DNA from: Mycolicibacterium goodii
GTDB taxonomy: Bacteria; Actinomycetota; Actinomycetes; Mycobacteriales; Mycobacteriaceae
Direction: 5' to 3'
NCBI RefSeq assembly: GCF_022370755.2
Contig: NZ_CP092364.2
Location: 4,774,001 to 4,838,000, forward strand
DNA length: 64,000 bases
This document shows, piece by piece, positions 34,283 through 49,028 of this stretch. The translations under genes and the position numbers were made by a program. Below the pieces are notes generated by a model. It was given only the letters and a program-made list of their open reading frames with translations, was not told the origin of the DNA and did not search any database. Every line of letters starts with the position of its first letter. The first letter of the stretch is position 1.

Positions 34283-34340
34283 CGAGCAGACGCGTAGGTA
34301 CCCACAAACACCCTCTCAGGGGTACTTTCATGTCTGCTCG
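34283..34340. repeat. palindromic repeat family B, copy 1
   Basis: Imperfect inverted repeat immediately after menA. Outer arms CGAGCAGAC (34283-34291) and GTCTGCTCG (34332-34340) are perfect complements; inner GGTACCC and GGGGTAC also pair. It shares its first 20 bases with copy 2 at 35321, on the other side of the DUF559 gene. A third, diverged copy lies inside resB (48947-49004). Confidence 0.85.
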
Positions 34341-34359
34341 GCAGAAGGAATGCGGCAGG

Positions 34360-34368
34360 TTATCCACA
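34360..34368 (+). other. isolated DnaA-box-like 9-mer
   Basis: TTATCCACA matches the classic bacterial DnaA-box consensus. It is single and lies between repeat B copy 1 and the DUF559 gene. There is no cluster of boxes or AT-rich unwinding element, so it is not an origin; it may be chance or part of the repeat-associated sequence. Confidence 0.3.
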
Positions 34369-34420
34369 GAACGCGAAGACGTGATCCACGTGACCCGCGC
34401 CCACGGCCACGATCAAGGAC

Positions 34421-35311
34421 GTGCCTCTCGACGAGATCTTCGCCGTCAACGGCGGAGTGGCCACCACTGCGCAACTGACCGCCGTCATGACCCGCAAGGT
34501 GCTGGCCTCGCTGGTGCGCTCAGGTGCGATCAAGCGGGTCTGCCGCGGCGTCTACTGCCTGCACACCCCGGGCAGCACCGAACGCCTGGCCGCGCTCGAC
34601 CTGCTCAACACCACCCCGATCGTGGCCTGCATGAGCACGGCCGCCGCGTTCTACGGCTTCGACACCGAGAACGACAATCGCGTCCACATCCTGGACCCAG
34701 GCGTTCGCATCCGATCCGACAGCAACCTGGTGGTACACCAACGTGTCGGCGCGCACCTGCGACGCGTCCGCGGCCGACTGGCGACGGCACCTGCCTGGAC
34801 CGCCGTCGAGATCGCCCGCACCCTGCGCCGGCCCCGCGCCCTCGCGACCCTCGACGCGGCACTGCACGTCGGTGCCTGCACCGCCGACGAACTCGCCGCC
34901 GCGGTACGCGAGCAGAAAGGACGCCGGGGCATCGTGGCGGTTCGTGATCTGCTGCCCCACGCCGACGGCCGGGCCGAATCTCCGATGGAAAGCGAGATGC
35001 GACTCGTCTTCCTCGACCGGGGCGTACCCGATGCCGAGCTCCAGTACGAGATCGTCGACCATACGGGCAAGTTGTGGCGCGTGGACTTCGCGTGGCCGGA
35101 CGCGAAGGTGGCCGCCGAGTACGACAGCATGCAATGGCACGCCAACCCCACGGCGTTCACACACGATCGGATCAAGGTCGCGCGCCTACAAGAGTGCGGC
35201 TGGACGACCATCGCGGCCGTGGCAGACGACATCCGCAAGCACCCGGAGGACCTGGTGCGCCACCTCCGCCGATACCTGGACCGCCCGGCCCGTCCCGCGA
35301 TCGCGGGCTGA
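34421..35311 (+). CDS. AbiEi-like N-domain / DUF559 (PD-(D/E)XK-like) protein
   Basis: 296 aa. The N-terminal ~60 residues form a winged-helix type AbiEi domain (GGVATTAQLTAVMTRKVLASLVRSGAIKRVCRGVY). The C-terminal ~110 residues resemble DUF559, a Vsr/MutH-related nuclease fold: ESPMESEMRLVFLDRG, then YEIVDHTGKLWRVDFAWPDAKVAAEYD, which supplies the D-x(n)-(D/E)-x-K/E-type active-site pattern, and the closing TAFTHDRIKVARLQECGW. No AbiEii toxin partner is adjacent, so a conventional toxin-antitoxin pair is not supported. The gene is bracketed at about 80 bp and 10 bp by two copies of palindromic repeat B. Start GTG 34421 has only a weak ribosome site. Confidence 0.82.
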   Translation: MPLDEIFAVNGGVATTAQLTAVMTRKVLASLVRSGAIKRVCRGVYCLHTPGSTERLAALDLLNTTPIVACMSTAAAFYGFDTENDNRVHILDPGVRIRSDSNLVVHQRVGAHLRRVRGRLATAPAWTAVEIARTLRRPRALATLDAALHVGACTADELAAAVREQKGRRGIVAVRDLLPHADGRAESPMESEMRLVFLDRGVPDAELQYEIVDHTGKLWRVDFAWPDAKVAAEYDSMQWHANPTAFTHDRIKVARLQECGWTTIAAVADDIRKHPEDLVRHLRRYLDRPARPAIAG

Positions 35312-35320
35312 CATCTCCGG

Positions 35321-35378
35321 CGAGCAGACGCGTAGGTACCCGCGAATGGGCTTTTGCGGGTACATACGCGCCTGCTCG
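35321..35378. repeat. palindromic repeat family B, copy 2
   Basis: A near-perfect 58-bp palindrome starting 10 bp after the DUF559 stop. Arms pair as CGAGCAG/CTGCTCG, CGCGT/ACGCG and GTACCCGC/GCGGGTAC around the loop GAATGGGCTTTT. The left 20 bases are identical to those of copy 1 and in the same orientation, so the two copies are direct repeats of a palindrome flanking one gene. It may double as a terminator (loop includes TTTT, but no T-tract after the stem). Confidence 0.88.
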
Positions 35379-46257: not shown

Positions 46258-47256
46258 TCAGCCGACTCCCGCGTACGAATGCAGGCCCACGGTCACCAGG
46301 TTGATGAAGAACAGGTTGAAGACCATCGCGACGAAACCGACGACGTTGATCCACGCGGCCTTGCGGTCACGCCAGCCCGCGGTGGAACGGGCATGCAGGT
46401 ACGCCGCGTACACCACCCATGCGATGAACGACACGGTCTCCTTGGGGTCCCAACCCCAGTAGCGACCCCAAGCTTCCTCGGCCCAGATCGCGCCGAAGAT
46501 GACGCCGAAGCCGAAGACCGGGAACGCGAAGATCGTGGTTCGGTAGGCGATCCGGTCGAGCGTCTGAGCGTCGGGCAGGCGGTCGACGATACGCGCCCAC
46601 ACACTGTCGCGGTTCGCGCCCTCCTGCACCTGCCCCAGCGGCGACATCTTCACCAGGAACAGGATGCTCGCGACACCGGCAACCAGGAACACGCCCGAGC
46701 CGAGGCTGACCACCGACACGTGGATGGGCAGCCAATACGACTGCAGTGCGGGCATCACCGGAGCCGCGTGGGTGTAGAGCCAGCGGCCCGAGACGGTCAG
46801 CAGGATCAGCACCGGCACCAGAACGAACACCCACAGCGTGCGGTACTGCTGGCGGCGCAGCACGACGGCCGCGGCCACCAGTCCGCAGAAGCACGTGAGG
46901 TTGATGAACTCGTACATGTTGCCCCACGGCACGCGTGAGGTGGACAGCCCGCGCAGCACGATGCACGCCAGCAGGAGACCGATGCCGACGTAGGTCAGTG
47001 CCAGACCGGTCTTGCCGATCCGCTCGTCGAACGGCCGCTTCGGGCTCTCCACGACGACGCCCGGGGTCGCGCTGTCGGCACCGACCACGGCGGGCCCGCC
47101 CGCGCCGACGAGCTCGCGTGACTCGACGCGTCGACTGCGGCTGTACGCCATCTCGACGGCCAGCAGCAGCAGTGCGCCCACCAGAACCAGCACCGACGAC
47201 GTGAACGCCCAATCGGAGTACCGGGCCAGCCCGATATCGATGTGCTCGGTATTCAT
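46258..47256 (-). CDS. ccsB: cytochrome c biogenesis protein CcsB (heme handling, System II)
   Basis: 332 aa with about eight TM segments. The tryptophan-rich WWD-type motif WGRYWGWDPKETVSFIAWVVYAAYLH near 277-302 and flanking histidines (HVSVVSLG, HARSTAGW) bind heme outside the membrane. Together with ResB it delivers and attaches heme to apocytochrome c. MNTEHIDIGL is the start at 47256, sharing one base with the resB stop. M. tuberculosis Rv0529 equivalent; the gene is called ccsA in some annotations. Confidence 0.94.
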   Translation of the reverse strand: MNTEHIDIGLARYSDWAFTSSVLVLVGALLLLAVEMAYSRSRRVESRELVGAGGPAVVGADSATPGVVVESPKRPFDERIGKTGLALTYVGIGLLLACIVLRGLSTSRVPWGNMYEFINLTCFCGLVAAAVVLRRQQYRTLWVFVLVPVLILLTVSGRWLYTHAAPVMPALQSYWLPIHVSVVSLGSGVFLVAGVASILFLVKMSPLGQVQEGANRDSVWARIVDRLPDAQTLDRIAYRTTIFAFPVFGFGVIFGAIWAEEAWGRYWGWDPKETVSFIAWVVYAAYLHARSTAGWRDRKAAWINVVGFVAMVFNLFFINLVTVGLHSYAGVG

Positions 47257-49028
47257 TACGCCTTCTTCTCTTCCGCAGGCACTTCCGTTGACTGCACGCG
47301 GCCGTCCAGCAGCCGCTCGGTCAACCGTTCGAACTCGTCTCCCCACCCGGAGTTGTCCGTGCGGGCCAGCCCGCCGAACTCGACGCTCACGGTACCCGCA
47401 CCTGCGGGTACCCCGCCCGATGCCGCCGGGGCGGCTGGGCCCGATGTCGCCGCCGGGGCGGCTGGGCCCGATGCCGCCGCCGGGGCGGCTGGGCCCGATG
47501 CCGCCGCCGGGGCGGCTCGGATGATCCGGACCCAGACCCTGCGCCTGCGCACCACGAGCGACACCAAGAGGCCCGCCATCATCGTCATCGCGAACACCAG
47601 CACCCAGATCTGCGCCGGATCGTGCGACACCTGCAGGTTGACGAACGGCTTGGCGCCGTCGAACCGCACGACGGTGCCGTCGTCGAGGCGGGTCTCCTGG
47701 CCCTCCTCGAGGTTGACGCGCGCGACCTTGGTAAGACGGTTCTGGCCGATCAGCCGCGGGTCGAGCGAGAACAGCGACTGCGGCCGGCCGGTGTCCAGGC
47801 CGGTGTCACCGCGGTAGATGTCCACGGCCACGGCGGGGTCGTTGAGGGCCGGGAAACTTGAGGACAGCAACGTGCCGTCGAGCTGCTTGGTGGGCGCGAA
47901 CAACCCCTGGATCGCGATCTGGTGCTTGCGGCGTTCGTCGGGATCCGGGTAGGTGCCCGCGGGCGGGTCGATGCGCACGACGCCGGAGGACAGGAACGTG
48001 ATCTGTTCCTCGGGGCGCCATTGGATGGTCTGGCTGCGGCTCTGACCGTCGGGGAACGTGACGGTGAACGACGGCGCGTACCCGCGCCCCTGCAGGTACA
48101 CGCGATCCCCGCCAACGCGCAGCGGATGATTGACCTCGAGCCGGTACGGCCGCCAGGTGTCGCCGGCCAGATCGTCGCCGGCCTGATAGTCGATGTCGGC
48201 GGCGAACGACAACGCCTGCCCGCTCGGCAGGTAATCCGCCTCGAAGTTGTTGACCCGGATGCACATCGGATTCAGCGAGGTGCCGTCGACCGTGTTGCCC
48301 GCGCGGAACGAGTCGAACGCCGCCGGTGAGGCCGTGCAGAATCCTGGACCGCCGTCGGCGATGACGATCACGTTGCCCTCGTAGCCGAACAGCTTGCCCG
48401 CCGCGACCGCGACGAGCAGGCCAAGCAACGAGAAGTGGAAGACGATGTTGCCGAACTCGCGCAGATAGCCCTTCTCCGCCGAGATCTCGATGGTCTCGGC
48501 GTCCTGACGGGTCACCGTGCGCCAGCCCTTGAACCGCCGCGTGACGAGTTCGGCGAGTTCGGATGCGTCGCCCTGCACCCGCGCGCTGTGGTGTTTGGGC
48601 AGCCGGCCGAGGTTGCGCGGCGCGGCGACGGGCACGGCGCGCAGGCTGCGGATGTGCTCGATCATGCGCGGGGTCAGGCAGCCGACGAGCGAGATGAACA
48701 GCAGTACATAGATCGCGGTGAACCAGAAGCTGGAGAACACGTCGAACGCCTGCAGACGGTCCAGCCATGGTCCGAGCGTCGGGTGCGTCGCGAGGTATTC
48801 GTCGACCTTGGATTCGTTGAGACTGCGCTGCGGCAGCAGGGCGCCCGGGATGGCGGCCAACGCGAGCAGGAACAGCAACACCAGCGCGGTGCCCATCGAC
48901 GTCAGCGTGCGCCACGTGTTGCGGATCGGGGCCCAGATTCTTCTGCCGAGCAGACGCAAACCTGCCCTTTCTGGGGGGTTTTCGGGCAGTTTTGTGTCTG
49001 CTCGCGCAGGAGACGCGGGGGAAGTCAT
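47256..49028 (-). CDS. resB: cytochrome c biogenesis protein ResB
   Basis: 590 aa. TM1 at about residues 40-62 (GTALVLLFLLALAAIPGALLP), TM2 near 98-118, TM3 near 195 (FHFSLLGLLVAVAAGKLF), a large extracytoplasmic domain with single Cys residues, and a last TM near 490. Two peculiarities: residues about 9-28 are encoded by a palindromic repeat of family B, and the C-terminal cytosolic tail contains a 9-residue repeat (SGPAAPAAA-type) from a 27-bp tandem repeat. ATG 49028 is supported by overlap with the ccdA stop (TGATG). Partner of CcsB. Confidence 0.93.
   Translation of the reverse strand: MTSPASPARADTKLPENPPERAGLRLLGRRIWAPIRNTWRTLTSMGTALVLLFLLALAAIPGALLPQRSLNESKVDEYLATHPTLGPWLDRLQAFDVFSSFWFTAIYVLLFISLVGCLTPRMIEHIRSLRAVPVAAPRNLGRLPKHHSARVQGDASELAELVTRRFKGWRTVTRQDAETIEISAEKGYLREFGNIVFHFSLLGLLVAVAAGKLFGYEGNVIVIADGGPGFCTASPAAFDSFRAGNTVDGTSLNPMCIRVNNFEADYLPSGQALSFAADIDYQAGDDLAGDTWRPYRLEVNHPLRVGGDRVYLQGRGYAPSFTVTFPDGQSRSQTIQWRPEEQITFLSSGVVRIDPPAGTYPDPDERRKHQIAIQGLFAPTKQLDGTLLSSSFPALNDPAVAVDIYRGDTGLDTGRPQSLFSLDPRLIGQNRLTKVARVNLEEGQETRLDDGTVVRFDGAKPFVNLQVSHDPAQIWVLVFAMTMMAGLLVSLVVRRRRVWVRIIRAAPAAASGPAAPAAASGPAAPAATSGPAAPAASGGVPAGAGTVSVEFGGLARTDNSGWGDEFERLTERLLDGRVQSTEVPAEEKKA
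47428..47517. repeat. 27-bp tandem repeat inside resB
   Basis: Three full 27-bp units begin at 47428, 47455 and 47482 with a partial fourth at 47509; the unit begins GGGGCGGCTGGGCCCGAT. Only one base differs between units (GTC/GCC). The length is a multiple of three, so changes in copy number keep the frame and add or remove nine Ala/Pro/Gly/Ser residues in the cytosolic tail of ResB. A likely strain-variable VNTR. Confidence 0.9.
48947..49004. repeat. palindromic repeat family B, copy 3 (inside resB)
   Basis: Arms CGAGCAGAC / GTCTGCTCG, then CAAA/TTTG and CTGCCC/GGGCAG pair around a central TTTCTGGGGGGTTTTC loop. The outer arms are identical to those of copy 1 near menA. The element is 58 bp, the same length as copies 1 and 2, and lies wholly within codons about 9-28 of resB, where it contributes an Arg/Pro-rich N-terminal peptide. 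Confidence 0.85.

Follow-up and report, generated by a model that had tools for sequence, protein, structure and literature searches.

In the REP/REPIN-RAYT systems (TnpAREP, 'REPtron'), a single-copy nuclease gene is flanked by palindromes that are also dispersed between other genes, and each type of RAYT gene is paired with a palindrome type of its own, as stated in passages of two reports (PMC6006769, PMC3116915). The enzyme is a Y1 HUH transposase; among the Actinobacteridae sampled in the first report, an excerpt mentions only IS-type subclass 1.1 of the Y1 proteins (PMC6006769). The promoters of AbiEi antitoxins, from the type IV AbiE toxin-antitoxin systems, contain inverted repeats to which these antitoxins bind (excerpt of PMC7319586), and the homing endonuclease I-Bth0305I is described as dimerising on nearly 60 bp (excerpt of PMC3943268). 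In mycobacteria, repeated structured families such as Myt-1 are listed for M. tuberculosis in part of PMC2267715; they are likewise dispersed, no associated gene is seen in that part of the source, and they are compared here by description only. The open-access literature in PMC yielded nothing on DUF559 together with mycobacterial palindromes, a weak negative given this scope: matches to DUF559 combined with repeat and transposition appear unrelated from their titles and the beginnings of their abstracts, and the sole match from 2018 onward for REPIN/RAYT in actinobacteria concerns HuH enzymes.

DUF559-type nucleases of mycobacteria and of some other actinobacteria, a family that has received little study, often lie between two palindrome copies. 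In the best-studied branch, the presumed DNA-contacting part of the protein varies with the palindrome, and together these features suggest a new type of dispersed repeat guided by a protein. One gene of the family is located in the window, i.e., the whole stretch of 64,000 nucleotides of Mycolicibacterium goodii analysed here (contig NZ_CP092364.2, positions 4,774,001 to 4,838,000), with the following features:

34283..34340, no strand assigned: left palindrome, GTACCC subtype, imperfect, 58 bp, directly 3' of the menA stop codon
34360..34369, + strand: TTATCCACAG, between the left palindrome and the window gene
34421..35311, + strand: gene for a predicted fusion of an AbiEi-like winged helix (wHTH) and an EDxHD (Vsr)-type nuclease, 296 aa, GTG start
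35321..35378, no strand assigned: right palindrome, GTACCC subtype, 58 bp, one mismatch in the right head
48947..49004, no strand assigned: dispersed palindrome, ACTGCCC/CCTGCCC subtype, which flanks a paralogous gene and not the window gene

The two 58-bp palindromes bracket the gene in the same orientation, as the earlier note had described, and read in the same direction they share their first 21 bases and 75% identity over 64 nt. The note had also mentioned a third copy of the same repeat; a copy is indeed present at 48947-49004, but it belongs to another subtype (AAACCTGCCC/AAAACTGCCC), that of the closest paralog of the window gene (G000:5611191-5612027, 65% identity), which is bracketed by AAAACTGCCC/AAACCTGCCC. 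In single-stranded DNA folding, the right palindrome (z -8.2) and the 48947 copy (z -6.6) are far more stable than shuffled sequences, and the left palindrome has a z of -2.65, with 2 of 200 shuffles equally good. The neighbours of the gene are menA (UbiA family) and a transporter-like ORF, named MHS in the earlier note, for which the part scanned gave no Pfam match. Between the palindromes we found the nuclease ORF only, and Pfam detected no transposase domain there, so that an insertion sequence or transposon carrying a known transposase was rejected. An Rfam scan of the window returned nothing at gathering scores. In the clade of the window gene, the interval from the upstream palindrome to the gene contains the motif TTATCCACAG, which we take to resemble a DnaA box; it is found beside the paralog L032 and in the relocated cassettes L126, L133, L134 and L151. 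The palindrome at 48947-49004 overlaps the first codons of an ORF of annotated length (47256-49028, presumably ResB-like), whose true start may be further in.

The Pfam analysis of the window protein only partly bears out its first description as a DUF559/AbiEi gene: AbiEi_4 is matched above the cut-off (1.3e-6) and the MTES_1575 REase family PF18741 below it (1.2e-5), but DUF559 itself (PF04480) is not matched. Among 56 homologs, PF18741 is found in 49 and PF04480 in 19 at E 0.01. An AlphaFold2 model (mean pLDDT 92.4, pTM 0.87) predicts an AbiEi-like part (aa 1-182) followed by a nuclease domain of the EDxHD/Vsr type (aa 185-291), whose nearest fold in the model is that of I-Bth0305I; this predicted Vsr-like fold does not favour the single-strand nuclease suggested earlier. 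Candidate catalytic residues are E190, D222 and D249, present in 56/56 homologs, and H240, present in 49/56; their assignment to the EDxHD motif is our own and is tentative. The scan with defence models returned AbiEi profiles and weak matches to homing endonucleases, ZorE and mREase, and we claim no defence role. The AbiEi-like part is here fused to a nuclease, and no AbiEii-like (DUF1814) gene was detected among the three ORFs scanned with Pfam beside the window gene, one of which gave UbiA. With respect to I-Bth0305I and Vsr, the window gene is not located in an intron or intein, its DNA-binding part is AbiEi-like, and its proposed site is the flanking palindrome of the element itself.

As in REP/RAYT systems, the window gene is a predicted nuclease gene flanked by its cognate dispersed palindrome, and by analogy the system would work like REP/RAYT without being a member: the enzyme is a predicted AbiEi-wHTH/EDxHD fusion instead of a Y1 HUH transposase, the unit is a palindrome of ~58 bp with a GAGCAGAC head in which no GT[AG]G tag was seen, and the host belongs to the Actinomycetota. 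Taken as a whole, the data are probably best explained by a nuclease fusion that reads, maintains and spreads its own palindromes. The fusion protein, probably as a dimer, would read both arms of its ~58-bp palindrome, with the recognition helix and wing reading a variable specifier next to a head that is constant (GAGCAGAC) in this clade. The palindromes would bracket the gene and scatter through intergenic DNA as small non-autonomous elements: nicking or cutting at a palindrome would lead repair or replication to copy it to new intergenic places. When specificity drifts, old copies would be lost by decay and copies made afterwards would have the new specifier; flanks and scattered copies would thereby change together. 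The palindrome-gene-palindrome unit itself would move rarely and be inherited mostly vertically. Bracketing, dispersal, the left-right match of specifiers, wHTH co-variation and one relocated cassette are all read directly from sequence comparisons; dimer binding, cleavage and copying are what we infer from them, and mobilisation by the nuclease would be the most economical explanation.

The palindrome is abundant in the 6.74-Mb genome of the window. The pattern CGAGCAGACGC occurs 84 times, versus 5 for the reversed pattern, and AGCAGAC-N28-52-GTCTGCT is found in 50 places, versus 2 for the control, a list based on exact matching from which the right window palindrome is missing owing to its head mismatch. 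This abundance is not due to chance. Each palindrome is composed of a constant head (GAGCAGAC in this clade) and a variable 'specifier'. The length is exactly 58 bp in 36 of 39 distinct copies, the left borders of these copies lean towards pyrimidines and the right ones towards purines, and 33/39 lie outside coding-like ORFs, versus 8% of 1170 random windows. Their arms are CTG on both sides in 21 copies, GTAC on both in 6, and mixed or other in 12; thus, the subtype bracketing each of the two paralogs also exists as dispersed copies.

Across 118 genomes of the genus, the median number of palindromes, uncorrected for relatedness, is 21 in genomes with a hit of at least 55% (n=60), 4 in those with a more distant hit (n=21) and 1 in those without a hit at E 1e-40 (n=37), the last group including some with many palindromes (G051, 27; G071, 20; G046, 13; G095, 10). 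In the four genomes inspected, the specifier core of the gene recurs among the dispersed copies, as counted by eye from listings in which gene-flanking copies are included where listed. The core is present in 25/46 copies and absent from 21/46 in M. celatum (flanks GAATCGCAC), where a second population is of the AAAAGCCCC/AAAAGTCCCC kind; it is present in 14 among the 18 copies listed, of 52 in all, in M. intermedium (ACTTGTAC), in 4/11 in M. arenosum (ATCCCCT; absent from 7/11) and in 11/12 in G034 (GGGCCGC, GGCC core).

Bracketing is retained in most relatives of the window gene, not in all: palindromes are found on both sides in 24/29 loci and on at least one side in 27/29, a count in which one 'none' is void (L104, mis-positioned at a contig start) and one locus is cut by a contig end (L095). 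We then considered 80 named mycobacterial loci, kept out of 272 confirmed places. A palindrome is located upstream in 62/79 and downstream in 50/79 of them, on both sides in 45/78 and on either side in 65/78, and 13/78 (including L192 and L194-L198) have none at the threshold used. Elsewhere in the same loci, there are 24 palindromes in 723,900 bp (0.008 per 250 bp). The enrichment beside homologous genes, which the earlier note had proposed as a check of its reading, is therefore strong. In the 63/80 loci with heads on both sides, left and right specifiers are 0.88 identical within loci versus 0.61 between loci, the best of 10,000 permutations reaching 0.675.

The specifier appears to be read by the protein itself. 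In 67/80 loci, the other 13 being excluded because of internal stop codons or because they have only one head or none, specifier distance is most strongly associated, once overall protein distance is corrected for, with six columns, those of residues 42, 30, 29, 38, 36 and 26, i.e., K26, A29, S30, A36, K38 and R42 in the window protein. In the model, residues 26, 29 and 30 belong to a helix (25-34), 38 to a wing strand and 42 to the segment between wing strands, with 36 just before, so that the co-variation concerns residues 26-42, where the recognition helix and the wing are predicted. In a sliding-window analysis, windows at aa 28-52 give a partial correlation of 0.28-0.31, and none from aa 43 on exceeds 0.18; for aa 24-43, the value reaches 0.34 versus 0.186 in the best of 2000 permutations. 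At specifier position 1, A accompanies H42 in 41/42 loci and a base other than A accompanies R42 in 18/23; at position 5, D29 goes with T (10/10), E29 with A (9/11) and R29 with G (5/5). We propose a code in which H42 would correspond to A and R42 mostly to G at position 1, and D29 to T, E29 mostly to A and R29 to G at position 5.

When independent changes were mapped on a tree from which the wHTH columns had been left out, on average 3.7/6, 2.8/3, 2.0/2 and 1.9/4 pairs agreed in direction and none was opposed, although no single test is large enough for significance. In leave-one-out prediction of the specifier, the neighbour nearest in the wHTH scored 0.751 versus 0.716 for the one nearest in the remainder of the protein, with neighbours separated by 0.25 or more, and random 20-column sets at most 0.641. 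On 27 held-out loci, both kinds of neighbour performed equally (0.805 for the wHTH, 0.804 for the remainder of the protein), versus 0.693 for random 20-column sets. The window gene (K26 A29 S30 R42; GTAGGTACCC) and its paralog (R26 A29 R30 H42; AAAACTGCCC) both fit the co-variation, and in M. aquaticum (L121/L134), M. brisbanense (L122/L187) and URHD0025 (L133/L139), the two clade-1 genes of the genome differ in their specifiers. That the protein recognises the palindrome, as the earlier note had suggested for this repeat, is well supported at the sequence level, and the co-varying residues make such recognition directly testable. These tests leave part of the effect of relatedness in place (protein and specifier distances have a Mantel r of 0.47), and one could argue that co-variation reflects relatedness only and that the palindromes, which form stable hairpins 3' of stop codons, are ordinary bidirectional terminators or structural repeats. 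We find this hardly credible, given the upstream copies, the constant head, the left-right specifier match and a co-variation peak confined to the wHTH.

As regards mobility, clustering of 109 loci by their left flanks gave 19 clusters, of which the largest contains 59 loci (some singletons reflect short flanks and some species occur twice), which indicates mostly vertical inheritance with some new contexts. The cassettes of loci L133 and L134 are homologous and lie in unrelated contexts: in coordinates relative to the gene, DNA similarity extends from -131 to +936 and the two palindromes occupy -124 to -69 and 880 to 939, with homology stopping at their outer edges. The mobile or formerly mobile cassette postulated in the earlier note thus finds support in one case in which homology is limited to palindrome-gene-palindrome. 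In L126, the right palindrome is reduced to GAGCAGA, possibly by excision or slippage deletion, and L133, in the same context, keeps the full palindrome. At one intergenic site, a palindrome is present in some species and absent in others (L154:9606, L139, L152 versus L124, L127, L135, L158). The 5-6 bp repeats (ATGAG, GATGAC) at two insertions in this site are possible target duplications, but they may be imposed by the overlap of a stop codon with a start codon, and we do not claim target-site duplication.

These observations bear on an alternative in which nothing moves, the protein being an autoregulated AbiEi-type transcription factor with flanking palindromes as operator and terminator and dispersed ones as regulon. 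The predicted fold match to AbiEi, the binding of AbiEi antitoxins to inverted repeats in their promoters and the position of the palindromes between genes agree with it; we nevertheless consider it unlikely, in view of the conserved nuclease domain with its invariant candidate active-site residues, the matching palindrome downstream, the cassette in two contexts and the presence or absence of a palindrome at one orthologous site, and since it would require, within each species, a joint change of specifier at tens of sites.

The earlier note had envisaged empty sites lacking the gene and one repeat in the menA interval. Among 30 menA loci, the DUF559 gene and the transporter ORF occur together in four (the window, G108, G063 and G086, the gene being split in two in G063) and both are absent within ~1.5 kb in 25, one locus (G040) being cut by a contig end; hence, no gene-plus-one-repeat site, and no clean empty site 3' of menA, was seen among them. 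In G021, outside these 30 loci, a partial hit adjoins menA by coordinates. Other palindrome types are located just 3' of menA in G101, G103, G113, G011 and G089, where the DUF559 gene is absent. The missing empty target in this interval speaks against a homing-type process, in which the nuclease would cut near unoccupied or heterologous palindromes and gene conversion during double-strand break repair would copy the cassette or the palindrome without a hairpin intermediate. The predicted nuclease fold, nearest to a homing endonuclease that dimerises on a site of similar length, and the concerted change of all copies would suit such a process, but copies in unrelated intergenic surroundings are beyond the reach of conversion alone. 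We hold homing to be improbable as formulated; it is a variant of the preferred explanation, not clearly separated from it.

No Y1 transposase (PF01797, E 0.001) is detected in the window's genome (G000); matches are present in 20/116 genomes of the genus, including the copy-rich G064, G029, G023 and G104. It is very doubtful that a RAYT/IS200-type Y1 enzyme moves the palindromes with the DUF559 gene as passenger: despite these 20 genomes, none is found in the genome with 50 palindromes nor in the other 95, the sampled Actinobacteridae are credited with subclass 1.1 alone in the excerpt cited above, and co-variation would be left unexplained. A conventional mobile element was also ruled out, as 50,697 phage records contained no homolog and 72,556 plasmid records only a partial 31% match in an 11.8-Mb Nonomuraea record (both at E 1e-5).

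Palindromes of a different kind are often associated with other DUF559-type genes. The window's genome encodes 14 homologs of this nuclease family of unknown function, for which a role is hereby proposed, as is a candidate partner for the dispersed palindromes of mycobacteria. Palindromes, some of them weak, are present on both sides of eight (L031-L034, L037, L039, L042, L043) and on one side of three (L036, L038, L044), and three have none or a terminator-like hairpin (L035, L040, L041). The nuclease core of L040 (G000:522152-522796), which is without flanking palindromes, looks degraded (VAVVLD for VAVEYDG). Copy numbers in these other clades are low: the L039-type palindrome occurs six times in the genome, twice beside the gene (control 0), and the L203 motif three times in G125, two copies flanking the gene. 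In three other genomes, a script (score 11; 600 bp each side, distant and terminator-like hairpins included) counted palindromes on both sides of 10/20 genes and on either side of 16/20; with such hairpins excluded by eye, there are seven matching pairs, nine genes with one side and four with none. The same type of count for clade-2 relatives gave 14/20 on either side and one on both, with a head like GAGCGTGCGTG in 7/20. Phylum-wide, outside the genus, matching palindromes occur on both sides in 4/26 loci (L203, L212, L220, L224) and on one side in about six, the rest having none at score 12.

We think the odds lean slightly towards a large RAYT-independent class of nuclease-palindrome systems in Actinomycetota, with dispersed families of ~50-60 bp, a readable residue-base code and, in many cases, a DNA-damage-type promoter. 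Such systems would resemble REP in their arrangement and rely on an enzyme of unrelated origin, within a group reported, for the sample excerpted above, with only IS-type Y1 proteins (PMC6006769). As to the promoter, the PafBC motif is printed as TGTCGG-10xN-TA-3xN-T in an excerpt of PMC8151990. The window gene is devoid of a PafBC-like motif. The similar pattern TGTCGG-N10-NANNNT, in which the -10 element is relaxed at its first base, ends precisely 6 nt upstream of the start codon in 7/10 genes of the 'PFLG' clade in the window's genome (L034, L038-L043), and a motif of this type is located near the start in 10/20 genes of the three other genomes (L279-L298), versus 0.0017 per window of sequence. 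The motif and its 6-nt spacing suggest leaderless, damage-inducible transcripts of DUF559-type genes.
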